Source: Cyanobium usitatum str. Tous
Lineage (GTDB): Bacteria; Cyanobacteriota; Cyanobacteriia; PCC-6307; Cyanobiaceae
Direction: 5' to 3'
NCBI RefSeq assembly: GCF_003011885.1
Contig: NZ_PXXO01000013.1
Location: 1-64,000 of the forward strand
DNA: 64,000 nucleotides
The position numbers and the translations under genes are program-made. The notes under the pieces were generated by a model. The model made no database searches. It had not been told where the DNA came from and worked only from the letters and a program-made list of their open reading frames with translations. Numbering within the stretch: position 1 is the stretch's first letter; each line of letters opens with the position of its first letter. Of this stretch, positions 1-13,991 are shown one piece after another.

Positions 1-288
1 CTGCTGGCAGGAGATGCGGAGCTGCCGGAGGAGCGGGTGGATGGAGAGTGCCTAAAGGGCGACCTGCGAGCGCTGCTTGAGCAACTGCCGGAGCTGCAGG
101 GGCGGGTGCTGAAGATGCGTTACGGGATTGAGGCTGGGGAGCCGCAAGAGAGCTCGGAGCCGATGAGCCTCAGTGCCATTGCTAAGCAATTGGGCATGAG
201 CCGCGACAAAACTCGCAATCTGGAGCGCAAAGCCCTCGAAGGCGTACGGGCCCAGTCAGGCATGCTTGAGGGTTATCTGGTGGCTTGA
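1..288 (+). CDS. RNA polymerase sigma-70 family factor, C-terminal part (5' end outside window)
   Basis: The frame is open from base 1, so the gene begins before the window. The visible 95 residues are sigma region 4: LEQLPELQGRVLKMRYGIE corresponds to region 4.1, and MSLSAIAKQLGMSRDKTRNL is the helix-turn-helix of region 4.2 that reads the -35 element, followed by a basic helix (ERKALEGVRAQ). It would direct RNA polymerase to promoters. The group (housekeeping, group 2 or 3) cannot be decided from this fragment. The stop lies 6 bp from the convergent stop of the next gene. Confidence 0.85.
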   Translation: MLAGDAELPEERVDGECLKGDLRALLEQLPELQGRVLKMRYGIEAGEPQESSEPMSLSAIAKQLGMSRDKTRNLERKALEGVRAQSGMLEGYLVA

Positions 289-294
289 GCTGAC

Positions 295-978
295 TCAGCC
301 GGTGGAGCTGACGCTGCGAGCAATCAGTACTGTCAACATCACGATGGCAAGAAGAACCTGAAGAGCCATAACGAGCTTGGCTCTCCGTGACATAACGGCT
401 TCAGATGTGGGTCCGTAGGTGGAATTGACGTTCATCGAGATAAACAGGTAGTCGATGATGTGGGGTTCTGGTGGTTCTTCTCCCTGTCGGCTGGGCCAAA
501 TAAATGCACCGCCTGGAGTGCTGACATCAAGAAAGATATAGACAAACATAAATACGAGTACGCTTTCCATATAGACGGCTGCCACATCCCACAATCCTGC
601 CAGTCCACCGCCTTGATGGCTGCCAGCAGTTGCAACCATGGACAGCACGTTGGCTATCACCTGAAGCATTGAAAACAGCAGATAGGCCAGGGCCCAGCGG
701 AACAGATGGCGGTTTTTGCCGCGAAATAGGCTGACCGTTAGCCCGATTGTTACGGCGATGAAGGCAATTGTGGCAATGATGTCGATGCGGTGTACCAAAT
801 CGCTGAGATTTGGAGCAATCAAGCTGCGATGCCGCAGATGATTAACCAGCAGAAGATCCATTCCCCAGACGCCTGTCGTAGCAGCAATTACCGCTAGTCG
901 CCCCCTGCCGCTAGTTAGACGCTCGCGCAGCATATCGGCGGGTCCAGCGCTTGTCTGGTTTGAAGGCTCACTTGCCAT
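295..978 (-). CDS. Pore-loop (two-TM K+ channel-like) membrane protein
   Basis: A 227-residue protein with four hydrophobic segments (about 28-48, 65-85, 93-116, 130-151), then GGAFIWP, a re-entrant-looking stretch IIDYLFISMNVNSTYGPT (about 174-191) and a last helix after SRRAK (about 199-222). This order matches the pore-loop/inner-helix arrangement of Ion_trans_2-like proteins, with NSTYG where K+ channels have TVGYG. Being an ion channel is inference; selectivity cannot be predicted. Its stop converges on the sigma gene. About 165 bp of AT-rich sequence separates its start from the next membrane gene on the same strand. Confidence 0.6.
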   Translation of the reverse strand: MASEPSNQTSAGPADMLRERLTSGRGRLAVIAATTGVWGMDLLLVNHLRHRSLIAPNLSDLVHRIDIIATIAFIAVTIGLTVSLFRGKNRHLFRWALAYLLFSMLQVIANVLSMVATAGSHQGGGLAGLWDVAAVYMESVLVFMFVYIFLDVSTPGGAFIWPSRQGEEPPEPHIIDYLFISMNVNSTYGPTSEAVMSRRAKLVMALQVLLAIVMLTVLIARSVSSTG

Positions 979-1142
979 AATTTTGCTCCGGCTGATGGTG
1001 GGATGAAATATTTAGGTTTAATTGGGGAATTTTTGAACCAATTCAAGCGATGATATGGCAGCTATGTATATATTCTTTTGGTGATTATCTTGATTTTGCC
1101 GCTTATTTCAGGGGCAAGCCGATGTCTTTTTAAGTAGTAAAA

Positions 1143-1610
1143 TTAGAAAAACTGATCGAAGTTGTCGAAGTCGACTGCGCTGAAGGTGCCTGCTTCTACC
1201 TGAGCCATAAGCCTTTCCAGCTGCACCCACAGGGCGCCAGCTGTGGCAATCGACAACACAAAAGAAACCAGCAGGGCAACCCCCGCCGAGAAACCGAATA
1301 CCTGCAGGCTGCCGCCAATAAACAGGGTGATGCCGATCACCACGCCGAAGTAAGGCAGGGTGACCGCAAAACTGCCAAGCGGTAGCAGGGGCAGGCGATC
1401 CTGTTTCCAGCCCTCCAGCTTGTTTTCTACCAATTTGGCGAAGGTGAGCCCGCAGAGCACGCCGATGGCCAGACCCACACCAGCTACTAGGTAGGGGGGC
1501 TGGATGATCTGGGCATATTCCAGCAGGATGTCACTCGCATCGAGGTCGGCATACATCCAGCCGTCCGGCAGGGCGCTGCTGTCCATGGCGTCGAGGGGCA
1601 GGCTGGCCAT
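1143..1610 (-). CDS. Small membrane protein downstream of a periplasmic binding protein
   Basis: A 155-residue protein that I do not assign to a named family. The first 35 residues are acidic and soluble. Three hydrophobic segments follow: about 38-60, 76-101 and 104-128. The C-terminus is acidic (FSAVDFDNFDQFF). It lies 38 bp downstream of the amino-acid-binding-type gene on the same strand, so the two are probably co-transcribed. That suggests a membrane partner for the binding protein, but it has no ABC-permease signature such as an EAA loop, so it is not an obvious transport component. Confidence 0.6.
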   Translation of the reverse strand: MASLPLDAMDSSALPDGWMYADLDASDILLEYAQIIQPPYLVAGVGLAIGVLCGLTFAKLVENKLEGWKQDRLPLLPLGSFAVTLPYFGVVIGITLFIGGSLQVFGFSAGVALLVSFVLSIATAGALWVQLERLMAQVEAGTFSAVDFDNFDQFF

Positions 1611-1648
1611 CTGCTGAGACTGGTCTGGGTGGCCGAGACCCTAGGCCC

Positions 1649-2809
1649 TCACGGTTCCCAGCGCTGGGAACCCAGGAAGGTGAGTTCGACGAAGCTGCTG
1701 CCGTTGTGGTCCTGGGGACCCAGTTGCACCCGGTAGCCGCCAAGGTCTAAATCGCGCATCGTTTCAAGCGCGGTCACAAAGCGTTGGCGGGTTGGCGCCG
1801 GCCCGGCCCGACGCAGGCCTTCCACCGTCATCTTGGCGGCAAGGAAGCCCTCGAGGCTGATGAAGCCGAATTGGGGTTTGGCCTGCTGGCGGCGCATTAA
1901 TTTCTGGTATTCCTTCACCACTGGCACCCTTTCGTTCCAAGGGAAAGGCACCACCTGGGCCACGCCAATGCCACTGGCCTCATGGCTTTGCAGCGAGGCC
2001 CGCAGGGCGCTGGTACCTACAAACGACACGTTCATCAGCTGGGCTGTGCTGCCGCGCCGCCGCATCTCGCGGCTTAAGGAGGCCGAGCTCGGGTAGGCCG
2101 CTATCACCAAAACCGCGTTGGCATTGGCGTTTTGCACCATGCTGGCTGCCCCGCCGGTTTGGTTTGAGTTGCGCTCAACGCTGGCAGTGGCCACTGGCTT
2201 GAGGCCATGGCGTCTCAAGGCCTTGAGAGATCCCTTGAGGCCGTCTTTACCAAAGGCATCGTTTTGATAGACAACCGCAACGCGATGGCGGCCGCTGCGC
2301 ACCAGGTAGTCGACCATCCGGTCAATTTCCATGTGGTAGCTGGTACGTAGGTTGAACACCATGGGGCGATGGGGCTGGCGTAGCAGCTGGGCGCCGGTGA
2401 GTGGAGCTATTAGTGGAATTTTCTGTGTCTCAACCAAGGGCAACACCGCCTTGACGGTGGGGGTGCCCACGTAACCAAATAAAGCAAACACCTTGTCGCG
2501 TTCAACCAGCTGCTTGGTGTTGCGCAGGGTGAGAGGTGGGTCGTAGCGGTCGTCGAGGCTCAGCAGCTTCAGTCGCTTGCCATGGACGCCACCTTGGCGA
2601 TTCACTTCGGCGAAATAGGCCAGAGCCCCTTCCCGGTATTCGCTGCCGAGCATGCCGGAGGGGCCGCTGAGGGCCGCCGACTGCCCCAGCACCATTTCTG
2701 TTGATGCCAGGGCAGGCAGGCTCAGCGTCAAGGCCAAAGCCGCTGCGGTGCCCACTCGCCCCCAACCGGCTTTCGGACTTAACTTCAGCAAACTGCAGCG
2801 GTTGGGCAT
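1649..2809 (-). CDS. Periplasmic amino-acid-binding-type protein (PBP type I, LivK-like)
   Basis: A 386-residue exported protein. A basic start followed by GTAAALALTLSLPALAST is a signal peptide. The mature part has the Leu/Ile/Val-binding fold signature: VLGQSAALSGPSGMLGSEY at the N-terminus, LLSLDDRYDPPLTLRNTKQL, and FALFGYVGTPTVKAVLPL. It would bind a small ligand, probably an amino acid or related molecule, in the periplasm. No ABC permease or ATPase gene is nearby; instead a ligand-gated channel homologue starts head-to-head and a small membrane protein follows. That favours a sensing or delivery role over transport, which is inference. The start at 2809 shares its CATG with the opposing gene; a TTG at 2791 is an alternative. 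Confidence 0.85.
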   Translation of the reverse strand: MPNRCSLLKLSPKAGWGRVGTAAALALTLSLPALASTEMVLGQSAALSGPSGMLGSEYREGALAYFAEVNRQGGVHGKRLKLLSLDDRYDPPLTLRNTKQLVERDKVFALFGYVGTPTVKAVLPLVETQKIPLIAPLTGAQLLRQPHRPMVFNLRTSYHMEIDRMVDYLVRSGRHRVAVVYQNDAFGKDGLKGSLKALRRHGLKPVATASVERNSNQTGGAASMVQNANANAVLVIAAYPSSASLSREMRRRGSTAQLMNVSFVGTSALRASLQSHEASGIGVAQVVPFPWNERVPVVKEYQKLMRRQQAKPQFGFISLEGFLAAKMTVEGLRRAGPAPTRQRFVTALETMRDLDLGGYRVQLGPQDHNGSSFVELTFLGSQRWEP

Positions 2810-2810
2810 G
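2807..2810. promoter_or_regulatory. Shared CATG: overlapping start codons of two divergent genes
   Basis: CATG at 2807-2810 contains the ATG of the plus-strand channel gene (2808) and, on the other strand, the ATG of the binding-protein gene (2809). If both starts are used, there is no intergenic promoter and each 5' control region lies inside the other gene. Alternatives are an ATG at 2847 for the channel and a TTG at 2791 for the binding protein. Those would open a gap of at most about 55 bp. No strong ribosome-binding site precedes any of these starts. Confidence 0.5.
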
Positions 2811-4043
2811 GGTAAGCGCAGGCAAAGGCCTTGGAACGTGCTGGCGATGGTTGCCGTTGTTCTGGCGGCCATCCTGGCAATTTTGGGGATCGGGCGCATT
2901 GATGTGAGCCCAGTGCTAAGCCGCGACTCTTTGCGTCTCTCTTCCGCGTCCCGTGCTCTCACCACCTTGCCCTTCGGCGAAAAGCCTGCCCTTGGTGTGT
3001 GGAGCGCCATGCGGGGAGACCAGCTCAGCGCCGGGGAGGAACGGGTGGATCGGGCTGAGTTTGAGAGAGCCCAATACAAGGTAGAAGTAGGAGTGTATTC
3101 AACTAGCAATTATGAGCTTGATCTAACGGTGCCAACCTATTCGAGTAATGGCTATGTTTGGCTGCGCTGGGAGGAGCCTATGCAGCGCTATGTGGAGGCT
3201 CGCGGTGGAGATATTTCGAGTATGTTTATTGTTCTTAACACCCTGCTTTCTGACAAGGATTCAAGCCTTAGGCCGGTGGGCAATGTTCCCGCGCGGCTTG
3301 CAGATGGTAGTTACTATCAATTGTTTACCTATGTGGGTCGTTATTATGTAGACAAGGCTAGTTTTCGGCACTATCCTTTCATGAGCATAAGTCTGCCACT
3401 TGTGATTGAGGCTAACGATATAGACGGCCAGCTTAGCTATCAAAATCTCCGTTTAATTCCAGAGATACGCAACAGCGGCATGGGTCTCTATGCACGCATT
3501 ATTGGCTGGCTAAATACCGGCTGGTCGATTGCGGAATACAGGCACCACTACGCTACGAATTTTGGGCTTGGTGGCGAAGAAAACGACTACAGCCAAATCC
3601 TCTTTGAGATTTCCTATGGCACCTCTTCGTGGTCGTCTTTCTGGAGATTGTTGTTGCCCCTCTCCGTGTTGATGGCCATGGTATTGTTGGTATTTAAGGT
3701 GCGCCCTGATGAGCAGGATGCTCGTGCCAGTATCCCGGTCACTGTGCTCCTTACCCTGGTTTTTCTACAGCAAACCTATCGTGACAAGTTGCCTGATTTG
3801 CCCTTTCTTACCTTCCTTGATCAAGTGTACGTCGTTGCTTACGTAGTTACTCTGACGGCATTTGTGTTGGTTCTATGGATTGGACGACGCTATGCCGTGA
3901 TGGAATCGATTGAAGATCCCGCCGAGAAACAAGCGTTATTGCTGCATCTAAATCGCCTTGATGATACCTGGCCCCTAGTGGTGGTTCTGTTGGGTGGTAC
4001 TGCAATTACCTTCTGCTGGATGACGATCCCTCAGGTTGGTTGA
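2808..4043 (+). CDS. Pentameric ligand-gated ion channel homologue (prokaryotic Cys-loop receptor family)
   Basis: A 411-residue protein. Residues 11-29 form a signal/anchor helix. Residues about 90-270 resemble the beta-sandwich ligand-binding domain: YVWLRWEEPMQ at 116-126 parallels the W-x-D-P strand, and FRHYPFMSISLPL at 186-198 parallels the YPF motif of the Cys-loop. No cysteine pair is present, as is usual in bacteria. The membrane part fits the family: M1 279-297, M2 about 303-322, an M2-M3 loop with LPDLPFLTFLDQ, M3 about 338-359 and M4 about 387-405. Such proteins form ligand-gated ion channels in the inner membrane. It opens head-to-head against a periplasmic binding-protein gene. 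Family assignment is from pattern, not alignment; gating ligand and ion selectivity are unknown. Confidence 0.75.
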   Translation: MGKRRQRPWNVLAMVAVVLAAILAILGIGRIDVSPVLSRDSLRLSSASRALTTLPFGEKPALGVWSAMRGDQLSAGEERVDRAEFERAQYKVEVGVYSTSNYELDLTVPTYSSNGYVWLRWEEPMQRYVEARGGDISSMFIVLNTLLSDKDSSLRPVGNVPARLADGSYYQLFTYVGRYYVDKASFRHYPFMSISLPLVIEANDIDGQLSYQNLRLIPEIRNSGMGLYARIIGWLNTGWSIAEYRHHYATNFGLGGEENDYSQILFEISYGTSSWSSFWRLLLPLSVLMAMVLLVFKVRPDEQDARASIPVTVLLTLVFLQQTYRDKLPDLPFLTFLDQVYVVAYVVTLTAFVLVLWIGRRYAVMESIEDPAEKQALLLHLNRLDDTWPLVVVLLGGTAITFCWMTIPQVG

Positions 4044-4098
4044 AATATCTATTGTTTAAGCCTAATATTTAAGAACATTGTTTAAGTATGTCTATGGT

Positions 4099-5802
4099 TT
4101 AAGCGGGTTGCAGTGTGAGTTTCGCCAGCATGCCACTCACCAACTTGCGAGGTGAAAAAGTACGTCCCATCAGGCCCATCAGGGCTCGCAAATCGTCTGT
4201 GTGCAGGCGATCGCCCTGAACCAGAGTAAGTAGGAGCCGTTGCCTCAGGCTGCTGCCCTCTGGACCCAGAAGCAGCTTCAGGCCAGCCCCCGCAACTGGA
4301 AGCAAGTCGGGACTAGTGGAATCGTTCTCCACAACCGCCAATAGATTTTCTAGTCGTTCAAGCTGCAGGCGTCCTTCTCGATCAAAGAGCACCTCAAGTA
4401 GTTTTTCGCGCATCTCACTGGTGTCGCCTGCCAGCAGGCGGCGGGCTACGTATGGATAGGCAACCCTGATGATCTTGAAGCTGGGATCAAGCCGCAGGGC
4501 CAGGCCCTCCTGGCTCACCACCGCCCTGATGATCAGGGCGAAGCGAGCCGGCACACGAAAGGGATAGGCATACATCAGCTCCGAAAAACGATCGGTGATG
4601 GCTTTGAAGTTGAAGGAGCCCACGTTGTCGCCTAGGGCGCCACCAAGCACCTCCTCAAGGGCAGGAATGATTGGCTCGAGATCGGCCCGGGGATTGAGGA
4701 AACCCAGGCTGACGAAATCAGCCGCGAGGGCGGTGAAATCCCTATTGATCAGGTGAACAACGGCACCTGTGAGGGTGAGGCGATCGCTGTCGCTGATCGA
4801 ATCCATCATGCCGAAATCCACATAGGCCACATGGCCCAGGGGGCCGGTTTTGCCGGAGAGCGCAAACAGGTTTCCGGGGTGGGGATCAGCGTGGAAGTAG
4901 CCAAATTCGAGCAGTTGCTGCAGCCCGGCGATCACGCCAGTGCGGATCAGGGCCGAGGGGTCCAGGTTGCGAGCCTCCAGCGCCTGGCGTTCCTGCAACT
5001 TGGTTCCATTGATCCACTGGGTGGTGAGCACCCGCTGGCTGGATAGCAGTCGCTCCACCCGCGGCACGGTCACTTCTGGTTGGCGGGCGAACAGATCGGC
5101 AAATCGTTCGGCGTTATTGGCCTCGAGCCGGTAATCAATCTCCTCAAACAAAGTTGAGCCGAATTCATCGATGATGTCGCCGAGGCCAAAGCCCAGGTTG
5201 AGTGGCAGCAGCGGCGCACTCAGCACAGCCAACAGGCGGATGATCACTAGATCCCGCCGCAGAATGGTGGGCAGATTGGGGCGTTGCACCTTGACGGCCA
5301 CCCAGTGGCCATCAGCGAGCTGCGCTTTGTAGACCTGGCCCAGGCTGGCTGCTGCTACGGGGTAGTCGGGGAATACTTCAAATAGCTGGTCGGCCGGGGC
5401 GCCCAATTCCTGCTCAATGGTTGCCAGCGCAATCCCATGGGGATAGGCGGGCAGGTTGTCCTGCAGCTGGGTGAGCTGTTCGAGCCAGTCGCGCCGCACC
5501 AGATCGGGCCGGGTGGAAAGGGCTTGGCCCACCTTGATGAAGCAGGGGCCCAGGTCCGTGAGCGTGGTGAGAATGCGCCTTCCCAGCCGTTGCTGCACCT
5601 GGGCATTGCTGCTGTTCCCCTGCACCACCAACACCAGGGCCAGGCTGGACAGTTGCCAGATCACCACGAGCAGCCGGGCTATCAGCACCCAGGGGCGCAA
5701 CAGCAACCAGCGCAGGTCTCTGCCTGGGTCGTAACCCAGCTCGCTGGCAGCTTCGGCGTTGGTCAAGTCACGGCAGCGGCTAGTTGAGCAGACTCTATTA
5801 AC
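4099..5802 (-). CDS. ABC1/AarF/UbiB-family atypical kinase
   Basis: About 567 residues. Family motifs occur in order: CFIKVGQALSTRPDLV (the KxGQ signature), AAASLGQVYKAQL (Ala-rich nucleotide loop), VAVKVQRP (ATP-binding Lys), an EEIDYRLEANN segment, HADPHPGN (catalytic loop) and YVDFGMM (metal-binding DFG). Hydrophobic stretches lie near residues 35-60 (before the kinase motifs) and near the C-terminus. Cyanobacterial and plastid members are linked to prenylquinone metabolism and thylakoid lipids; the substrate here is not known. The frame extends to an ATG at 5847, but that would overlap the divergent neighbour, so I prefer the GTG at 5802. A TTG at 5766 is also possible. Confidence 0.88.
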   Translation of the reverse strand, partial: VNRVCSTSRCRDLTNAEAASELGYDPGRDLRWLLLRPWVLIARLLVVIWQLSSLALVLVVQGNSSNAQVQQRLGRRILTTLTDLGPCFIKVGQALSTRPDLVRRDWLEQLTQLQDNLPAYPHGIALATIEQELGAPADQLFEVFPDYPVAAASLGQVYKAQLADGHWVAVKVQRPNLPTILRRDLVIIRLLAVLSAPLLPLNLGFGLGDIIDEFGSTLFEEIDYRLEANNAERFADLFARQPEVTVPRVERLLSSQRVLTTQWINGTKLQERQALEARNLDPSALIRTGVIAGLQQLLEFGYFHADPHPGNLFALSGKTGPLGHVAYVDFGMMDSISDSDRLTLTGAVVHLINRDFTALAADFVSLGFLNPRADLEPIIPALEEVLGGALGDNVGSFNFKAITDRFSELMYAYPFRVPARFALIIRAVVSQEGLALRLDPSFKIIRVAYPYVARRLLAGDTSEMREKLLEVLFDREGRLQLERLENLLAVVENDSTSPDLLPVAGAGLKLLLGPEGSSLRQRLLLTLVQGDRLHTDDLRALMGLMGRTFSPRKLVSGMLAKLTLQPA

Positions 5803-5817
5803 GCCATCCCTCTTTCC

Positions 5818-7149
5818 ATGGGCCTGCCGCTGCATCTGCCGGCCCACGGCCGTGGTCGGGGTCTGTCTCCTGCCCTGCGGCGCCTGCTGCGCCAGCGGCC
5901 GGGCAGCTGGGATCTGCCGGAGCTGCCGGAGCAGGGTGGTCCCCTGATCGATACCGGCGCCGTCGCTGATGCTCAGCGGCGTTGTGCCTCCCAGCTTGGA
6001 GCGGGGGCGCTCTGGTTTGGTGTTAATGGTGCCAGTGGCCTGCTGCAGGCAGCCCTGCTAGCCCTCGCTCCCCCTGGCAGCCGGGTGCTGCTGCCCCGCA
6101 ACCTGCACCGCTCCCTGCTGCACGGCTGCGTGCTGGGCCAGCTGCGGCCCGTGCTGTTTGACCTGCCCTTCGATCCGGCCAGCGGCCTGTGGCTGCCACC
6201 GGGTCCAGCCCATCTCGAGGTGGTGCTTGCAGCAGCCGAGCAGGACGGTCCCCTGGCGGCCCTGGTGCTGGTGTCGCCGAGCTACCAGGGCCAGCGCGCC
6301 GAGCTGCCGGCCCTGGTGGCATTGGCCCACGGCCGTGGGCTACCCGTGCTGGTCGATCAAGCCCACGGCCGCGGCGAGGCCTTGGCGGCCGGGGCCGACC
6401 TGGTGGTGCTCTCGGGCCAGAAGGCTGGCGGCGGTTTGGCACAGAGCGCCGCCCTGCTGCTGCAGGGCGGCAGGGCTGATCGCGATGCCGTGGTCCGGGC
6501 CCTGCTGTGGCTGCAGACCTCCAGCCCCAGCGGCCTGCTGCTGGCCTCCGCAGCAGCTGCCCTCGATGACCTCACCAGCTCGGCGGGCCGGCGCCGCTGG
6601 CAAGCGGCATGGCGCTGCGGCGAGCGCCTGCAGCGCCGCTGCCGTGCGCTGGGCTTGCCCCTGGTTGCAAATGACGACCCGCTGCGGTTGGTGCTGCACA
6701 CCGCTGCCATGGGAATCAATGGGCTGGAGGCCGATGAATGGTTGCTGCAGCGGGGTGTGATCGCCGAGTTGCCTGAACCTGGGGCGCTCACTTTTTGCTT
6801 GGGTATGGCGCCGCCCCCTGGGCTGCTTTGGCGCCTGCCCCACCAGCTGCTGCGCCTGCGGCGTGCCCTGGGGGGACCACCCCTGCCACCCTTCAGCGCG
6901 CCACCGCTGCCGCTGGTAGCGGAGCCGGAGCTGCCCCTGGCCGAGGCCTGGCGCGCTCCGGCCGAAGTCGTGGCTTTGGCGGCGGCAGCTGGACGGATCG
7001 CCGCCGAACCCCTGTGTCCCTATCCGCCCGGTATTCCCCTGCTGGTGCCCGGCGAGCGGATCGATCTGGCTAGGGCTACCTGGCTGCGGCAGCAGCAGCA
7101 CCTTTGGCCAGGCCAGATCGCTGATACGGTGAAGGTTGTGGCCGGATAG
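5818..7149 (+). CDS. Orn/Lys/Arg decarboxylase-family PLP enzyme
   Basis: 443 residues of fold-type I PLP protein. The N-terminus (LPLHLPAHGRGRGLSPAL) is that of the family. FGVNGASGLLQA replaces the usual N-G-S/T-S phosphate-binding loop, PRNLHRSLL carries the stacking His, LVDQAHGRG has the cofactor Asp-x-x-His, and LVVLSGQKAGGGLAQ contains the Schiff-base Lys. The C-terminal LCPYPPGIPLLVPGERI is typical of the small domain. It would decarboxylate a basic amino acid, feeding polyamine synthesis. The exact substrate cannot be read from the sequence. The next gene starts 7 bp after the stop. Confidence 0.85.
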   Translation: MGLPLHLPAHGRGRGLSPALRRLLRQRPGSWDLPELPEQGGPLIDTGAVADAQRRCASQLGAGALWFGVNGASGLLQAALLALAPPGSRVLLPRNLHRSLLHGCVLGQLRPVLFDLPFDPASGLWLPPGPAHLEVVLAAAEQDGPLAALVLVSPSYQGQRAELPALVALAHGRGLPVLVDQAHGRGEALAAGADLVVLSGQKAGGGLAQSAALLLQGGRADRDAVVRALLWLQTSSPSGLLLASAAAALDDLTSSAGRRRWQAAWRCGERLQRRCRALGLPLVANDDPLRLVLHTAAMGINGLEADEWLLQRGVIAELPEPGALTFCLGMAPPPGLLWRLPHQLLRLRRALGGPPLPPFSAPPLPLVAEPELPLAEAWRAPAEVVALAAAAGRIAAEPLCPYPPGIPLLVPGERIDLARATWLRQQQHLWPGQIADTVKVVAG

Positions 7150-7156
7150 GAGGCCG

Positions 7157-7816
7157 ATGGATTCCAGTGCCGCGGCCGACCTAGGCCAAGCCTCCCAGCA
7201 GCCGACCTACCAGTGGGATTTCGTCACCCCTGGGCTGCCGGATAGTGCCTTTGAAGACGCTCCGGGCTTCAGCCCCACCCCCATGGAGCTGAGGGTGATG
7301 CTGCTGGCCCATCTGCGCCCCCGAGCCGATTCCCTGGTGTGGGATGTGGGCGGCGGCACCGGTGCCCTGGCCCTTGAAATCGCCCGGCTGATGCCCAGGG
7401 GTGCGGTGCATACCCTCGAGCGCGACCCCGATGCCATCGAGTTGTTGGAGCAAAACCGACACCGCTTTGGCATCACCAACCTGCACATTCACGCTGGCGC
7501 TGCGCCCGATGATCTGGACCAGCTGCCCGCCCACCCAGATCGGGTGCTGCTGGAGGTGGGACGGCCCTTGGGTGATGTGCTGCTGGCGGTATGGGAAGCG
7601 CTGGTGCCCCGCGGGCGCTTGGTGATCAGCACCGCCAGCCTGGAGGGCTTGGTGGATGCCACCGATACCCTGGGCCAGCTGGAGGCCCGCGATGTGCAGG
7701 TGGTGCAGGCCACCGTGCACCGCATGCAACGGCGCGGCAGCCAGGCCAAATTGGCTGCGGCTGAACCACTGTTTTTGATTGCTGCCGAGCGCTCAGCTAG
7801 CTCTGAGCCCTCCTGA
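7157..7816 (+). CDS. cbiT: Cobalt-precorrin-6B (C15) methyltransferase, decarboxylating
   Basis: A 219-residue SAM-dependent methyltransferase. VWDVGGGTGALALEIARL is motif I (SAM binding) and VHTLERDPDAIELLEQN is motif II. The N-terminal GLPDSAFE is characteristic of CbiT, which methylates C15 and decarboxylates the C12 acetate side chain in corrin synthesis. No CbiE domain is attached and no other cobalamin gene is adjacent. I chose the ATG at 7157, preceded by AGGAGG at 7148-7153; an upstream GTG at 7136 would overlap the decarboxylase gene. Confidence 0.85.
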   Translation: MDSSAAADLGQASQQPTYQWDFVTPGLPDSAFEDAPGFSPTPMELRVMLLAHLRPRADSLVWDVGGGTGALALEIARLMPRGAVHTLERDPDAIELLEQNRHRFGITNLHIHAGAAPDDLDQLPAHPDRVLLEVGRPLGDVLLAVWEALVPRGRLVISTASLEGLVDATDTLGQLEARDVQVVQATVHRMQRRGSQAKLAAAEPLFLIAAERSASSEPS

Positions 7817-7823
7817 TCGCCGC

Positions 7824-8747
7824 GTGTTGATACCCCCTACCCAGCCAGCTAAACCCCGCACCGCCACCTCCCTGCCCCGGCTGCTTAGCGGCTGGCTGGC
7901 TGGGGGCTTTGGCTTCGTGGTGGTGATGCTTGGCGGCTGGTGGTTCACGGTGGCCGTAGGGGTGATCGTGCACTTGGGGCTGCTGGAGTTCTTCCGGATG
8001 GCCCAGTTCAAGGGGATCCGGCCCGCCACCAAAACCACCCTGGTGGCGGTGCAGCTGCTGCTGGTCACCACCCAGCTGGCCAGTGGCAGTGGCTTAGTGG
8101 GTGGCGGTTGGTTTGCCGGCGATGTGGCCGCAGCAGTGCTGCCGGCCTCTGGGGCGGTGATCTGCGGCTGGCTGCTGTTGCAGCCGGTCACCGGCACCAT
8201 CGCAGACATCGCCGCTTCAATTTTCGGGCTGTTTTATCTGGGTTTTCTGCCCAGCTACTGGATACGTCTGCGCGACCTGGCAGGCGACGCTCTGGCGCCC
8301 AACCTGGCGGGCCAGCCCTGGCCCGCCAGCGCCGGGCTCGCCCTCACCCTGCTGGCCTGCTTCCTGATCGTTGCCACCGACATCGGCTCCTACGTGATCG
8401 GCCGCCGGCTGGGGCGCCATCCGCTTTCGCCAATCTCCCCTGGCAAAACGGTGGAGGGTGCCCTGGGCGGGGTGGCCTGTGCTGTGGCGGTGGGTGCTTT
8501 CGGCGGCACCTTGATCGGCTGGAGCTGGGGCTGGCTGATCGGTGGGGTGCTCGGGGCGGTGGTGGCCCTGTTTGCCCTGGTGGGTGATCTCACCGAATCG
8601 ATGATGAAGCGCGATGCAGGCCTAAAGGATTCCGGTGATGCCATCCCTGGCCATGGCGGGATCCTGGATCGAATAGACAGCTATCTGTTTGTGCCGGCGG
8701 TGGTTTACTCGCTGGTAACCCTGGTGTTGCCGCTTTTGCAGGGCTAG
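7824..8747 (+). CDS. cdsA: Phosphatidate cytidylyltransferase (CDP-diacylglycerol synthase)
   Basis: About 307 residues with eight or so membrane helices. The C-terminal signature is complete: SPGKTVEGALGG, then SMMKRDAGLKDSGDAIPGHG and GILDRIDSYLF, matching the S-x-x-K-R-D-x4-KD ... H-G-G-x-x-D-R-x-D pattern of CTP:phosphatidate cytidylyltransferases. It makes CDP-diacylglycerol from CTP and phosphatidate for phospholipid synthesis. The start is uncertain: GTG at 7824 follows the cbiT stop by 7 bp, while earlier in-frame starts from 7779 would overlap cbiT. Confidence 0.92.
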   Translation: MLIPPTQPAKPRTATSLPRLLSGWLAGGFGFVVVMLGGWWFTVAVGVIVHLGLLEFFRMAQFKGIRPATKTTLVAVQLLLVTTQLASGSGLVGGGWFAGDVAAAVLPASGAVICGWLLLQPVTGTIADIAASIFGLFYLGFLPSYWIRLRDLAGDALAPNLAGQPWPASAGLALTLLACFLIVATDIGSYVIGRRLGRHPLSPISPGKTVEGALGGVACAVAVGAFGGTLIGWSWGWLIGGVLGAVVALFALVGDLTESMMKRDAGLKDSGDAIPGHGGILDRIDSYLFVPAVVYSLVTLVLPLLQG

Positions 8748-8754
8748 TGCAGGG

Positions 8755-9393
8755 CTAAGGGCTCACCTGGGCTGTGCCAATTAGCTGCACCATGCCTGCT
8801 TCTATGCGGGCATCACTGATGTGGATGCTGGGATCCATCGGCAGCCTGCTGCTGACGTTGCCGACTACGGAGCTGATTTCGATGCTGCCCCTGGCTGCCA
8901 CAACGGTGGTGGCCAGCTCGACCAGGTCTGGAGTGCCGAGGGCCCGGGCTGCAAACACCAGGTTGTCGCGGCACATGCGCAGTTCCACCAGGGGCACGAT
9001 GCCAAGTAGGGCTTCGCCTAGGCCATCGCCTAAGGCGCGCCACTGGGGGGCGCTGAGGGAGCGGGTGAGGCCGTCGGCGGTGAGGCTCACCTGGCCCTGG
9101 ATCTCGAAGGCCCGCTCCAGCTGCAGCGGTTTGCCCTTGAGCAGGTTGCCGCTGTGCACTTGGATGGGGCCACTACTTAGCTCCACCAGCTCGAAGTGGA
9201 GGTCTTTGTAAATCACCCGGCGGGCCAGCAGTTGCACGCCGGCCAGGCGACCGCGCAGTAGTTGCAGGCCAGTGCCTTGCAGCTGGATATCGAGACTGCC
9301 GATGGACTGGGACTGTTGGCGCACCCAGAGCTGCAGGCCGCTGGCCAGCAGCTGCATCACCGGGCCGCCTGGTTTGTCGTCGCTGCTGCTCAT
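8755..9393 (-). CDS. DUF2993 (LmeA-like) protein
   Basis: 212 residues of alternating beta-rich sequence with no signal peptide or membrane helix. ISSVVGNVSSRLPMDPSIHI and LQLQGTGLQLLRGRLAGVQL resemble cyanobacterial DUF2993 proteins, related to the LmeA lipid-binding family. A role at membranes or in lipid handling is inferred from the family only. Its start overlaps the hydrolase stop by 4 bp (ATGA at 9390-9393), so the two are probably translated together. Confidence 0.7.
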   Translation of the reverse strand: MSSSDDKPGGPVMQLLASGLQLWVRQQSQSIGSLDIQLQGTGLQLLRGRLAGVQLLARRVIYKDLHFELVELSSGPIQVHSGNLLKGKPLQLERAFEIQGQVSLTADGLTRSLSAPQWRALGDGLGEALLGIVPLVELRMCRDNLVFAARALGTPDLVELATTVVAARGSIEISSVVGNVSSRLPMDPSIHISDARIEAGMVQLIGTAQVSP

Positions 9394-10283
9394 TGCTGGG
9401 AAGGGGCGCCGAGCCAGGTGGCCGCGACGGTGGCGGTCTGGTCGAGGTGCGGTAAGTGGCCGCAGGCATCCAGCTCACGCACCCGCTCTCCTAACAGGGC
9501 CAGGGCCGCCCGCTTCTGGGGTGCCCGCAGGATGCGGTCATTGGCGCCCCACAGCACCGTGATTGGTTGGTTGGGCAGGGGGGCGCCGACGCCGGCGAAG
9601 CCACCGGAGCGGGCAAAGCGCCGCAGGGCATCAGCCCAGCCAGGGCTTTGCAGGTGCAGCGAGGCGATCTCCAGTTCGGCAGCTCCCACGGCGGCGTCCG
9701 GATCGGAGAAGGCGGTGCGGCAAAGGCCCCGGCGCACCCCTGGCAGGGACAGAAAGCGCACGCCCAGGCCATCGAGCAGGGGCGGCAGGGGCATGGGACG
9801 GCCAGTTAGGCCGGCGGGAGCAAGCAGCAGTAGGCGATTCACCTGCTCGGGCAGGCGTCGGGCCAGCTCCACCGCCACCGAGCCACCCATCGAGGCGCCG
9901 ATCAGGCCGAGGGGGGCGGGATTGCGGTTGCTAATTTCCCGCGCCAAAACCTCCAGGTGGCGCAGCACGCCACTGGGGCTGTAATCGCCGCCGGTGGGTC
10001 TTGGGCAGAAGCCAAAGCCGTAAAGGTCGGGAATGAATAGCTGCACGCCGCTGGCCAGCAGGGGGGCCAGACGCCGGAATTCCAGGAAGGAACTATCAAA
10101 GCCATGCAGCAGCAACACCGGTGGCCCTTCGCCCAGCACGGCCACAGGCCAGGGCCCCTCCTCGCCGAGTTCAGGCAGGGGCCACCACTGCACCTGCGCT
10201 GCCAAGGCCCTGCCCTGGGGATCCAGCAGGCTGCGGGCCGCTGCCGCCACCAGGGCTTGCTGGGCTGTGGGCTCGCTGTTCAC
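9390..10283 (-). CDS. Alpha/beta hydrolase
   Basis: 297 residues of the alpha/beta-hydrolase fold. VLLLHGFDSSFLEFRRLAPL is the oxyanion-loop strand. IGASMGGSVAVELARRLPE holds the nucleophile elbow G-x-S-x-G. ITVLWGANDRIL carries the acid Asp and DACGHLPHLDQ the catalytic His. The substrate is unknown; soluble and probably cytoplasmic. It sits in a chain of 4-bp overlaps with the iron-dehydrogenase gene upstream and the DUF2993 gene downstream, suggesting one transcript. Confidence 0.85.
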   Translation of the reverse strand: MNSEPTAQQALVAAAARSLLDPQGRALAAQVQWWPLPELGEEGPWPVAVLGEGPPVLLLHGFDSSFLEFRRLAPLLASGVQLFIPDLYGFGFCPRPTGGDYSPSGVLRHLEVLAREISNRNPAPLGLIGASMGGSVAVELARRLPEQVNRLLLLAPAGLTGRPMPLPPLLDGLGVRFLSLPGVRRGLCRTAFSDPDAAVGAAELEIASLHLQSPGWADALRRFARSGGFAGVGAPLPNQPITVLWGANDRILRAPQKRAALALLGERVRELDACGHLPHLDQTATVAATWLGAPSQQ

Positions 10284-11386
10284 GCGGGCTGGCGCTCGCT
10301 GCTGCAGGTGCTCACCAGGGCTGCCAGTAGGTCGTTGGGCCCTACGGCAAAGGGCAGGTGGTGCAGATCGGAATCATCGCTGCAGGCAAAGGCGCAGGCC
10401 TGCTGCAGCTGGTGCAGGCCTGCCTCAGCCAGACCAAGCTCCTCCAGGCTCACCGGCAGGCCGAGCTTGCGGAACAGGGGCAGCAGCTGGCGCCGGGATT
10501 GGCCGGCGAGCTGGTTGCCGCCGAGCACCTCCTCCAGCCGCAGCTGCACCAGGATCCCGAAGCCCACCTTCTCGCCATGTAGGCGGCCATGGCTGGCCTC
10601 CAGTTGGGTGAGGCCGTTGTGAACGGCATGGGCAGCCACGGTGCGGCAGCGGGCTCCCCCAATACCGCCGATCAAGCCAGCGCTGAGCCCGCAGGCTTCA
10701 GCTACCCGCTCCCAGGCGGCGCCGTGGGGATCCTGGAGGGCAAATTCAGCTTCCAGCATGAGTTGGTCGCGCAGCACCCGGGCCATCTGAACCGCTTGCT
10801 GCACCAGGCCATCGCCGCTGGCGCCACTACTCACCGACGACTCGTACCACTTGGCCATGGCGTCGGCGATGCCGCTTGCCAAGGTGCGGGCTGGGGCTTG
10901 GCGGACTAGGTCGTGGTCAAAGATCAACAGATCTGGGCAGCGGGCCAGGGCCACATCGCCCAGAAAGGCACCTTCAACTGAATAGATGTTTGCCAGGGCA
11001 GTCCAGCCCGCGCAGGTGGCCGCACTGGTGGGCACGGTGATGCAGGCCAGACTCAGCCGGTGGGCCAGCAACTTGCCGGCATCGAGCACCTTGCCGCCAC
11101 CAATGGCCACAACTGCATCGCAGCCTTGGTTTTGACAAATGGCAGAGACCTTTTTCAGGTCTTCTTCGCAGCAGTCGAACTGCAACTCGGCGCAGTGGGG
11201 CTGGAGCCCAGCCTGGTGTAGGTCGGCAACCAGTTGCTGCCTCAGCTGGGCTGTTACGGCGCTGCGACCTAGCACCAGTGGGCGCTGGCCCAAGGCAGCT
11301 AGCCGCGGGATGCCCTGGAGCCACGCTCCAGGGCCCCTCAACACCTCTGCAGGTGCGATGGCGTGTTGGCTCAGGGAGTTGCTCAT
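10280..11386 (-). CDS. Iron-containing alcohol / glycerol dehydrogenase family protein
   Basis: About 368 residues. VVAIGGGKVLDAGKLLAH is the NAD(P)-binding glycine motif. The metal ligands are visible as an Asp in SGIADAMAKWYE and histidines in AAHAVHNGL and SHGRLHGEKVGFG. ITVPTSAATCAGWTAL is a typical active-site segment. The closest functional class is the glycerol dehydrogenase branch, but the substrate is not certain. I placed the start at the ATG at 11386; the frame runs back into clpC without a convincing start. It ends in a 4-bp overlap with the hydrolase gene. Confidence 0.85.
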   Translation of the reverse strand: MSNSLSQHAIAPAEVLRGPGAWLQGIPRLAALGQRPLVLGRSAVTAQLRQQLVADLHQAGLQPHCAELQFDCCEEDLKKVSAICQNQGCDAVVAIGGGKVLDAGKLLAHRLSLACITVPTSAATCAGWTALANIYSVEGAFLGDVALARCPDLLIFDHDLVRQAPARTLASGIADAMAKWYESSVSSGASGDGLVQQAVQMARVLRDQLMLEAEFALQDPHGAAWERVAEACGLSAGLIGGIGGARCRTVAAHAVHNGLTQLEASHGRLHGEKVGFGILVQLRLEEVLGGNQLAGQSRRQLLPLFRKLGLPVSLEELGLAEAGLHQLQQACAFACSDDSDLHHLPFAVGPNDLLAALVSTCSSERQPA

Positions 11387-11438
11387 CCCGCTGCTTCTTT
11401 CATCCCCAAGTGATGGTACGGGGTAGACCCGAATCCCC

Positions 11439-13991
11439 TCAAACTCCAGCCGCAGCCAATTCCGGCTCGGCCGGCAGGGCTGCCTGCTTGCGGATAAATA
11501 CCTGCTTGTCCTCATTGACATCCACCAGGGCGGAGTCGCCATCGCCAATCCGTCCGGTGAGGAATTCCTCAGCCAGCGAATCTTCGAGCAGCCGCATCAC
11601 TGCTCGGCGTAGGGGACGGGCGCCGTAGGAGGGGTTGTAGCCCTCCTCGACCAGCCGTTCCTTAAAGGCTTCAGTAACGGATAGGGAAATACCCTTCTCC
11701 AACATCCTGCCGAACACTTCTTTGAGCATGATCTCGGCAATGTCTTTGACTTCCTCGCGGTTGAGCTGACGGAAGACAATGATTTCGTCGAGGCGGTTGA
11801 GGAATTCGGGGCGGAAGTATTGCTTCAGCTCCTCATTGACTAGCGAGCGAATGCGGTTGTAGTTGGTTTCATCCGCGTCACCACCGCCGAACTCAAAGCC
11901 AAGGCCGCCGCCGCCCTTTTCAATCACCTTCGAACCAATGTTCGAGGTCATGATTATGAGGGTGTTCTTAAAGTCCACCGTGCGGCCCTTGGAATCGGTC
12001 AGGCGACCGTCTTCGAGCAACTGCAGCAGCAGGTTGAACACATCAGGGTGAGCTTTTTCGATCTCGTCGAATAGCACCACGGTGTAGGGACGACGGCGCA
12101 CAGCCTCGGTGAGCTGGCCACCTTCATTGAAGCCCACGTAGCCGGGAGGGGAGCCGATCAGCTTGCTGACCGTGTGGCGCTCCATGAATTCGGACATGTC
12201 AAGCCGGATCATGGCTTCTTCGCTGCCGAAGAAGTAAGCCGCCAACGACTTGGTGAGCTCGGTCTTACCAACACCGGTGGGGCCGGAGAAGATGAAGCTG
12301 GCAATCGGGCGGTTGGGATTTTTCAGCCCCACTCGGGCCCGGCGGATGGCACGGGACACGGCCTTAACGGCTTCGTCTTGGCCAATCAAACGCTGGTGGA
12401 GGGTCTCCTCCATGTTCAGCAGCTTGGCTGTCTCGCTTTCAGTGAGCTTTTGAACAGGCACACCAGTCCAGGAGGCAACGATGTGGGCGATGTCCTCCTC
12501 CGTAACCATGGGCGTGCGATCGCCTTCGGCGGCGCCTTCAAAAACCGCTACGGGTGCACTACTACCGGCCTTAGCGGCCACGGCCTCGGATGCTGGCTCT
12601 TCATCTTTGCGGGTCTGCAGGATCGAGCGAATCTGCTCGCGCAGCTCTACTTCCTTATCGCGCAACTCACCAGCCTTGGTGAAGTCTTGCTCGCGCACGG
12701 CCTGTTCCTTGTCTTTCTGGACAGCGCGCAGCTGCTTATCGACTTCCTTGGCCGCCGGCGGCAACTTGGAATTCATCAGCCGCACTCGGCTGCCGGCCTC
12801 ATCAACCAGGTCGATTGCCTTGTCTGGAAGGAAGCGATCAGAGATGTAGCGGTCGCCCAGGGTGGCTGCCGCAATCAGGGCCTCATCGGCGATCTTGAGG
12901 CGATGGTGAGCTTCGTAGCGATCCTTGAGACCGCGCAGAATTTCGATCGTGTCGATAACGGAAGGCTCGCCCACCATGACCGGCTGGAAGCGACGCTCCA
13001 AGGCCGCGTCGCGCTCGATGTGTTTCCGGTACTCATCAAGGGTAGTGGCACCGATGCACTGAAGTTCGCCCCGGGCGAGGGCAGGCTTGAGAATGTTTGC
13101 GGCATCGATTGCACCTTCTGCTGCACCTGCGCCGATCAAGGTATGAACCTCATCGATCACGAGGATCACGTTGCCGGCGCTGCGAATCTCCTCCATGATT
13201 TTTTTGAGGCGTTCCTCAAATTCACCCCGATATTTGGTGCCTGCCACCAGCAGACCGATGTCCAGGGTGAGGACTCGCTTGTCTTCGAGGATGTCTGGAA
13301 TATCACCAGAATTAATCCGCTGAGCCAAGCCCTCTGCGATGGCTGTTTTTCCTACGCCTGGTTCGCCAATTAGGACCGGATTATTCTTAGTGCGACGACC
13401 AAGTATTTGAATTACCCGCTCAATTTCGTTCTGACGACCCACCACCGGATCGAGCTTGCCATCGGCGGCCTGCTGGGTGAGGTTGCTGCCGAACTCATCG
13501 AGAGTTGGTGTTTTTGTGGAGCCCTTGCCGCTGCCGCCACCGGCGGCGACTTCGGCTGTTTCGCCCAGCATGCGGATCACCTGGGTGCGCACCTTGGCTA
13601 GGTCAACGCCAAGGTTTTCCAGGACCCGAGCAGCTACACCCTCACCCTCACGGATCAAGCCAAGCAGCAGGTGCTCGGTGCCGATGTAGTTGTGACCAAG
13701 CTGGCGAGCTTCTTCTAGGGAGAGTTCAAGCACTCGCTTGGCGCGAGGAGTGAAAGGGATCTCCACGGCGACGAAGCCGGAGCCTCTGCCGATGATTTTT
13801 TCAACTTCAACGCGGGCATCTTTGAGGTTTACCCCCATCGACTTGAGCACCTTGGCGGCAACGCCAGTGCCCTCACCGATCAGGCCAAGCAAGATCTGTT
13901 CGGTGCCCACAAAGTTGTGGCCAAGGCGGCGGGCCTCCTCTTGGGCCAGCATGATCACCTTGATGGCTTTCTCGGTAAACCGCTCGAACAT
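11439..13991 (-). CDS. clpC: Clp protease ATP-binding subunit ClpC (Hsp100)
   Basis: 850 residues. Two Clp-N repeats (residues 1-150), AAA-1 with Walker [14 protein letters not shown] near 210 and [19 protein letters not shown], a UVR-like coiled middle region (about 425-475, [20 protein letters not shown]), AAA-2 with [12 protein letters not shown] near 570 and a C-terminal D2-small domain. It unfolds substrates and feeds them to ClpP-type peptidases in cytoplasm or stroma-like space. Length and domain order are standard. The 5' flank (13992-14170) has an AT-rich stretch but no clear promoter that I can call. Confidence 0.97.

Follow-up and report, generated by a model that had tools for sequence, protein, structure and literature searches.

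Results

Overlapping Start Codons of a Channel Gene and a Solute-Binding Protein Gene

The stretch of DNA analyzed here, referred to as the window throughout, comprises 64,000 nucleotides of the cyanobacterium Cyanobium usitatum str. Tous (contig NZ_PXXO01000013.1, positions 1 to 64,000). Our subject is a pair of neighboring genes in it that encode a homologue of the pentameric ligand-gated ion channels (pLGICs) and a LivK-like periplasmic solute-binding protein (SBP). A preliminary description of this DNA had delimited the open reading frames (ORFs) of both genes and of a small membrane protein next to them, and had placed the channel and SBP genes head-to-head; coordinates and layout were borne out, and the predicted ATG codons of the pair even overlap within a single CATG (Table 1). 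The matched segments of the two genes overlap by 2 bases in five genomes, counted with the window genome included (G000, G001, G005, G006, G014; G and L numbers are our handles for genomes and loci). A promoter and terminator scan of positions 900-4300 returned six sigma-70-like sites against 1.7 expected; none of them lies between 1111 and 3228, and hence none at the shared start. No tRNA gene was found in positions 1-12000.

The SBP gene had been described as lacking ATP-binding cassette (ABC) transporter partners, and this holds as well: UrtB/C/D/E-like and LivH-like query proteins, taken from the same genome and named by eye, yielded no permease or ATPase match in the whole window or in L034-L045 at an E-value threshold of 1e-3. 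The gene labeled ABC1 at window positions 4099-5847 encodes an ABC1-type kinase and not a transporter.

Table 1. Features of the channel/SBP locus (window coordinates) and, in the last row, loci of the decarboxylase gene run found in relatives
Feature	Position	Strand	Basis and remarks
pLGIC (Pro-loop receptor) homologue, 411 aa	2808..4043	+	ORF from ATG 2808; ELIC/GLIC homology, fold
Type-1 periplasmic SBP, LivK-like, Peripla_BP_6, 386 aa	1649..2809	-	Pfam, fold
Signal peptide of the 386-aa SBP			likely; judged by eye
Overlapping divergent start codons in one CATG	2807..2810	both	ATG 2809-2807(-) and 2808-2810(+); starts predicted
Membrane protein, 155 aa, judged outside the pair	1143..1610	-	38 bp downstream of SBP gene
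TM0, extra N-terminal membrane helix, residues 6-29	2823..2894	+	helix in AlphaFold2 model
Periplasmic beta-sandwich ligand-binding domain, residues 86-270	3063..3617	+	model, GLIC superposition, ELIC alignment
M2 pore helix, residues 303-325	3714..3782	+	D304 (-2'), R306 (0'), S308 (2'), T312 (6'), L315 (9'); prime numbers by eye from GLIC alignment
Decarboxylase-run loci	L159:1182-6238; L160:1548-6604; L161; L162; L203; L175:7537-13092; L082:2257-7818		

The 411-Residue Protein Is a Homologue of Prokaryotic pLGICs

ELIC and GLIC are the best solved relatives of the channel protein (9.9e-8 for ELIC and 4.4e-4 for wild-type GLIC in a phmmer search of the PDB), and a profile built from 28 channel rows matched GLIC and ELIC chains with E-values between 1.7e-20 and 5e-17, as judged from the matches listed. 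An AlphaFold2 model (mean predicted local distance difference test score 75.4, predicted template modeling score 0.67) superimposes on GLIC with a Z-score of 22.9 and a root-mean-square deviation of 2.7 over 285 residues, and shows a beta-sandwich and a four-helix pore. The channel-type fold proposed in the preliminary description is thus confirmed, with the refinement that the protein is strictly a Pro-loop and not a Cys-loop receptor; since its only cysteine is located in M4 and no flanking disulphide pair is present, we did not file it among the Cys-loop receptors in the strict sense. P190 and F191 of the YPF sequence are invariant in the 28 rows; the beta6-beta7 loop proline that they include is the single most conserved position of pLGICs (Jaiteh et al., PMC4795631).

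Likeness to both solved channels extends from the beta-sandwich extracellular domain and the four-helix pore to the PF of the YPF loop and an LPxLPxxTxxD-type loop between M2 and M3, while the acidic residue at -2' is a likeness to GLIC. In contrast to ELIC and GLIC, whose PDB chains begin after any signal peptide, the window channel carries about 85 extra N-terminal residues with the helix TM0, which probably stays uncleaved, a WN motif, and a juxtamembrane motif (V..RD.LRL....R.L) that lies after TM0, all of them ahead of the binding domain. In an alignment of 38 channel rows, one of which (L087) is without the TM0/juxtamembrane stretch, both motifs are kept in at least 90% of the rows having a residue there.

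The six ELIC residues F19, Y38, E131, F133, Y175, and F188 we take to form its ligand box. Similar residues occupy four of the equivalent positions in the window channel (Y97 for F19, Y116 for Y38, E201 for E131, and Y261 for F188), and two positions are changed (N203 for F133 and H246 for Y175); the equivalents of ELIC 175 and 188 were taken from the alignment by eye. M2 is the most conserved part of the channel (0.96 over 38 pairs), and from the ring of acidic D304 residues at -2' a cation-permeable pore is predicted.

The LivK-Like Protein Has a Type-1 Fold and Altered Ligand Anchors

The SBP matches Peripla_BP_6 at 8.6e-59 (200.3 bits against a cut-off of 31.7) and the fold of the Ralstonia protein 3lop with a Z-score of 33.8 over 343 residues at 32% identity, so that a domain match above its cut-off and a structure match agree on a type-1 fold. 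It shares this fold with the HAAT-type SBPs LivJ, LivK, and UrtA (nearest solved structures 3lop and, from Rhodopirellula, 4kv7) and differs from them in being without adjacent Urt/Liv permease and ATPase genes and in the replacement of the LivJ anchors. These anchors, which we take to be S79, A100, T102, Y202, and E226 and to hold the amino-acid ligand, correspond to T, L, G, A, and S in the window SBP, where a threonine sits one position ahead of that of LivJ T102; the A100 position is a glycine even in Escherichia coli LivK. The label "amino-acid-binding" in the preliminary description found no support in this comparison, in which Thr102, Tyr202, and Glu226 are found as Gly, Ala, and Ser. 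Because the anchor residues are replaced, a standard alpha-amino acid is an unlikely ligand, and we dropped a canonical amino-acid ligand as unsupported. Arginine occupies the A100 position in five SBPs of a second type (type II), and the ligand may not be the same for the two types. Two other Peripla_BP_6 proteins are encoded in the window genome (L073, L074), one beside UrtBCDE-looking genes and one beside a LivH-like gene, as named by eye.

Channel and SBP Genes Are Paired in Two Orientations

The distribution of the pair was followed in sets of 60 genomes, 300 genomes of the family Cyanobiaceae, and 291 genomes of the class, and in a scan of genome_contigs. These sets overlap, so that their counts are not additive; those of the family and the class were sampled from larger groups, and at most six (family) or three (class, fusion scan) candidates were scored per genome. 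The channel occurs in 22 of the 60 genomes, the window genome included, and all 15 channels with at least 55% identity have the SBP head-to-head, one 63-residue fragment at the end of G008:C65 being left aside.

At a threshold of E ≤ 1e-60 for either protein, the 300 Cyanobiaceae genomes contain 68 channel matches (56 genomes) and 59 SBP matches (46 genomes). An SBP gene lies within 256 bp of 48 of the 68 channel matches, 43 times divergently and five times convergently (tail-to-tail; G270, G264, G233, G249, G112); gaps were measured between matched segments, and starts are predicted. At 48% identity or more, 43 of 49 channels are paired. This pairing is far beyond chance, and the pair is conserved across Cyanobium and its relatives; with the fold match, neither of the two refuting conditions set in the preliminary description applies. 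In the four convergent loci that were fetched, the SBP gene follows hrcA. Divergent transcription from one common promoter would not by itself account for the five convergent pairs, and mere co-regulation through a common upstream region, which we considered as an explanation, is weakened accordingly.

Viewed from the SBP side, 48 of the 59 matches are paired with a channel, one (G253:C285) lies beside a channel gene cut by the contig end, and ten adjoin a Bestrophin-like gene; none of the close SBP matches found in the 300 genomes lacks both kinds of neighbor. The genome_contigs scan, which partly overlaps this set, was limited to the best 80 of 396 relatives and gave 78 SBP loci: 31 with a channel, two with a Bestrophin-like gene, and 45 with neither, nearly all of the latter being titled proteobacterial, mostly beta. 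In the channel-paired loci of either survey, the query-protein search found no Urt/Liv match next to the SBP gene, and in the 45 proteobacterial-type loci it found scattered ATPase-type matches only (L113, L116, L135, L151, L154). The conserved neighbors of these 45 loci revealed no partner; they look like housekeeping genes (DnaK/DnaJ-like by eye; NUDIX and molybdopterin domains by Pfam in the five that were scanned). Several of the loci end near the SBP gene, and some neighbors may therefore be missed.

Some proteobacterial SBP relatives stand in tandem arrays of at least two genes (L113, L114, L115, L123, L129, L133, L139, L149), again mostly without adjacent matches to the Urt/Liv queries. 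Two metagenome-assembled genome records titled Bifidobacterium breve and Phycisphaerae (L084, L101) hold the cyanobacterial pair; these are probably misbinned contigs.

Correlated Divergence and Changes of Site of the Two Genes

The distance matrices of the two proteins correlate at 0.846 over 38 non-identical pairs (the 48 pairs less 10 duplicates), the best of 2000 shuffles reaching 0.237. Leaving out four fragmentary pairs (L045, L082, L085, L087) raised the correlation to 0.891 for the remaining 34 full-length pairs (best shuffle 0.264).

In the window the pair sits between the ABC1-kinase gene and the gene of the 155-residue membrane protein. Among the fetched loci representing this site, duplicates included, 38 hold the pair and 24 hold neither gene in the stretch; the pair is found at other sites as well. 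Three genomes (G001, G014, G008) possess two cassettes. Those of G001 and G014 are about 4 kb apart, and in them a type I SBP goes with a type I channel and a type II SBP with a type II channel. Genome G012 gave no channel match and retains a 79-residue 3' remnant of the SBP gene with a stop.

The membrane protein downstream of the SBP gene had been put forward as a possible partner, a suggestion that failed. Its gene is present in 49 of the 60 genomes, the window genome included, and adjoins the ABC1-kinase gene where the pair is missing, the two being direct neighbors in L069 (gap of 41 bp), L075 (47 bp), and L076 (165 bp) and lying farther apart in L070 (745 bp), L071 (3102 bp), and L068 (288 bp including an SBP remnant). 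In the second cassettes of G001 and G014, the ABC1 gene and not the 155-aa gene comes after the SBP gene. On the strength of its wide occurrence, its ABC1 adjacency without the pair, and its absence after the second-cassette SBP genes, we rejected this protein as a third component; it belongs with the neighboring ABC1-kinase gene. Its similarity to TctB is weak (17.2 bits against a cut-off of 29.1).

Two further genes flank this site. A 227-residue membrane protein with a weak DUF1345 match (19.5 bits against a cut-off of 31.8) is encoded at window positions 295-978 (minus strand) and adjoins the pair in only some relatives. At positions 5818-7149 (plus strand) lies the gene for a 443-residue protein that weakly matches ornithine/lysine/arginine decarboxylases in their C-terminal part; it remains beside ABC1 in genomes without the pair (e.g., L069, L070).

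Fused Relatives Exist Elsewhere in the Class

At L197, L198 (two genes), and L200, a single protein combines an N-terminal Peripla_BP_6 domain with a pLGIC. The channel part of the 764-residue L200 protein matches solved pLGICs (best 1.7e-8), and hhalign comparisons linked the L200-type channel half to the window channel family at 1.1e-18 and the SBP half to the window SBP family at 2.5e-9; a mismatched control, the SBP half of the fusion against the channel family, gave 0.43. The L200 protein was matched in 26 of the 291 class genomes and in 7 of 130 genera, with a single genus supplying 20 of the 26 genomes, and nearly all of these matches span both domains. A different arrangement is found at L199:3966-6614 (plus strand), which encodes an 883-residue protein with the pLGIC first and a C-terminal SBP_bac_5 domain (1.2e-38), a domain order reversed relative to the PBP-I (type I periplasmic binding protein) fusions.

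Other Partners of the SBP and Other pLGIC Neighborhoods

Nine of the ten Bestrophin-like genes that adjoin an SBP gene in the 300 genomes were scanned, and all nine pass the PF14023 cut-off; the tenth (L218) was recognized by a home-made hidden Markov model only. Because a 9-row profile of these proteins found no solved bestrophin relative (one chance-level match), it is the Pfam name PF14023 that marks them as putative channels. Stops or changes of frame interrupt two of the ten SBP genes concerned (G301, G232). Bestrophin-linked SBPs belong to the same SBP subfamily (39-54% identity, plus one 60% fragment); the SBP gene is followed by that of the PF14023 membrane protein and often then by a PstS-like lipoprotein gene (L065:5229-7240, L066:5579-7590, L067:3527-5469, L177-L182, L218).

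A second neighborhood involves a decarboxylase found in seven of the 300 genomes (E ≤ 1e-30) and absent at this threshold from the window genome. In six genomes, genes for the decarboxylase, a dCache-like membrane protein, a transporter of the major facilitator superfamily (MFS), and, last, a pLGIC paralogue form a same-strand run (Table 1), which in the seventh (G141) is split over two contig ends. Both decarboxylases scanned pass the NCBIfam cut-off of 305 for histidine decarboxylase (358.7 and 345.9 bits), while the nearest solved relatives of one decarboxylase are serine decarboxylases (4e-73); hence histamine and ethanolamine are both possible as the product. The membrane protein has weak dCache_1 matches in three of four scanned cases (best 2.6e-5, 24.3 against 45 bits), and one MFS transporter was scanned. 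In two cases, G284 (L175) and the record from which L082 comes, the run directly adjoins the LivK-like/channel pair, on different sides. The run looks like a make-export-sense logic.

Further pLGIC paralogues have other neighbors. In G001, the gene of an orphan UrtA-like SBP (Peripla_BP_5, 6.4e-147) and that of another pLGIC paralogue are convergent, their ends overlapping (L055:4563-5861(+)/5851-7023(-)); this genome has another strong Peripla_BP_6 protein at C65. In L047, L048, L049, and L051, a short RidA-like ORF (by eye) comes after a paralogue with about 30% identity, and in L047 a glyoxalase-II-like gene precedes this paralogue.

Discussion

An SBP-Coupled Channel as the Preferred Reading

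We regard an SBP-coupled cation channel, i.e., a two-gene chemical-sensing module of picocyanobacteria, as the best explanation of these data, with a probability of roughly 0.6. The LivK-like SBP would be exported to the periplasm and close around a small solute; it would then address the channel at its extracellular domain, either docking there or passing on the ligand, and in this way control a cation-permeable pore. The presence of the solute would thus be converted into an ion flux or a change in membrane potential and not into nutrient import. The neighborhood of the two genes suggests that a protein of the nutrient-import type was recruited to operate an ion channel. What the data show are the homologies and folds of both proteins, their adjacency in two orientations, their correlated divergence, and the fused relatives; export, physical contact, ligand, cation selectivity, gating direction, and the physiological output of the pair are inferred. 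The functional link between channel and SBP, which the preliminary description had proposed, is supported because the pair persists in two orientations and at more than one genomic site and occurs as fused proteins elsewhere.

Several observations weigh against such a coupling. Correlated divergence is what gene linkage by itself yields, and deep branches of the channel and SBP trees differ in places; for these reasons the weight of our argument rests on the changes of site and orientation. Six of the 49 channels with at least 48% identity are without the SBP (G253, G111, G084, G287, G201, G189). Two of these (G253, G111) lie at contig ends, the G111 fragment being closer to the decarboxylase-linked paralogues, but G084, G287, G201, and G189 show no SBP gene in the stretches read, and in G084 the SBP gene is missing at the same site. 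Among the channel matches at 37-45% identity, i.e., the paralogues, 14 of 19 have no such SBP alongside. Some fusion matches are split into two frames (G511) or carry a stop (G458, G539, one G547 copy). The channel also falls below curated cut-offs (Neur_chan_memb, 18.7 against 28.1 bits; LIC, 27.2 against 280; LGIC_1, 27.7 against 500), although these misses of Pfam and NCBIfam reflect library thresholds and not a biological feature. Finally, ELIC is gated by free small amines without any SBP, responding to primary amines including gamma-aminobutyric acid at high micro- to millimolar levels (PMC3119659). GLIC is gated by protons.

Alternatives to Direct Coupling

The foremost alternative is that both genes take part in one response to one compound without contact between their products: the SBP would serve an ABC permease whose gene lies elsewhere, and the channel would respond to this compound on its own. 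Permease-like genes do exist beside the other Peripla_BP_6 proteins of the window genome, channels without the SBP are known from the four genomes named above, and four of the six ligand-box positions carry a residue similar to that of ELIC. Set against this are the fused relatives, the exchange of the channel-like partner for a Bestrophin-like one within the same SBP subfamily, and the proteobacterial SBP relatives, which are also mostly without adjacent Urt/Liv-query matches; we consider this alternative rather unlikely.

Less probable still is a ligand buffer, i.e., an SBP that sequesters and releases the agonist of the channel in the periplasm and sets its sensitivity without docking. Such a role fits separate as well as linked genes and the largely kept agonist site of the channel, and Tasneem et al. 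(PMC549065) proposed preliminary concentration or sensing by linked periplasmic binding protein (PBP) domains; covalent fusion in relatives, however, favors contact.

A tripartite importer made up of SBP, channel, and the TctB-like 155-residue protein, to which the 38-bp spacing and the weak TctB similarity might point, is very improbable, being already strongly weakened by the wide occurrence of the 155-aa gene, its place beside ABC1 where the pair is missing, and the second cassettes of G001 and G014. It is equally improbable that unrelated neighbors are merely carried along jointly, by chance or by a mobile element: the occupation of more than one genomic site does show that the cassette moves, but two orientations are kept, fused homologues exist, channel loss in G012 goes together with SBP decay, and every close SBP match in the 300 genomes has one of the two kinds of neighbor.

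A wider reading than the SBP-coupled cation channel can be offered tentatively. The importer-type SBP might have become a plug-in sensor for two pores, the pLGIC and the Bestrophin-like protein, and where it lies beside the operon of an amine-making decarboxylase, an exporter, and a second pLGIC in some relatives, a circuit of self-made transmitter and receptor might result.

Relation to Known Systems

Of the papers that our literature searches listed, judged by title and beginning of the abstract, those of Tasneem et al. and Jaiteh et al. and those on DeCLIC deal with domains linked or added to prokaryotic pLGICs, and none names the present pair. SBP-linked channels were already noted in 2004: Tasneem et al. 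(2004/2005, PMC549065) described PBP-I-pLGIC fusions in alphaproteobacteria and stand-alone PBP-II or Cache neighbors, described the cyanobacterial members as simple in architecture, and proposed a functional cooperation with the PBP. The present system resembles theirs in the conserved linkage of a periplasmic binding protein to a pLGIC (48 of 68 channel matches, and the fusions) and differs in that the PBP-I is stand-alone and co-conserved and that PBP-I fusions also occur in cyanobacteria, as far as the available part of their account allows the comparison. In a literature search that left subscription papers mostly outside, we found neither a stand-alone PBP-I/pLGIC pair nor its two orientations, the Bestrophin-like alternative, or cyanobacterial fusions. 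Jaiteh et al. (PMC4795631) expected that further study of pLGIC architectures could bring insight.

Like DeCLIC, whose periplasmic accessory module is N-terminal, the window channel would work with such a module; that of DeCLIC is fused and calcium-linked, whereas here a separate SBP is encoded (PMC12664993). A stand-alone SBP gene next door likewise distinguishes the window channel from ELIC and GLIC. The SBP also matches the fold of AmiC (1pea, Z-score of 29), a precedent for SBP-based sensing in place of import. AmiC acts on the regulator AmiR (1qo0) and not on a channel, unlike what we propose for the window SBP.

Significance

The natural role of the bacterial relatives of neurotransmitter receptors is largely unknown, and a co-conserved SBP gives a handle on it: the usual screens for SBP ligands could identify its ligand, and the channel would then be testable with the ligand plus the SBP. 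Fused and separate versions within one phylum make contact between the two proteins testable. For orphan SBPs of picocyanobacteria, the pair points to a possible partner; a review regards what orphan urtA genes do, and with which partners, as unresolved (PMC8786288). The pair would also provide a bacterial parallel to those animal receptors in which type-1 binding domains are combined with channels.

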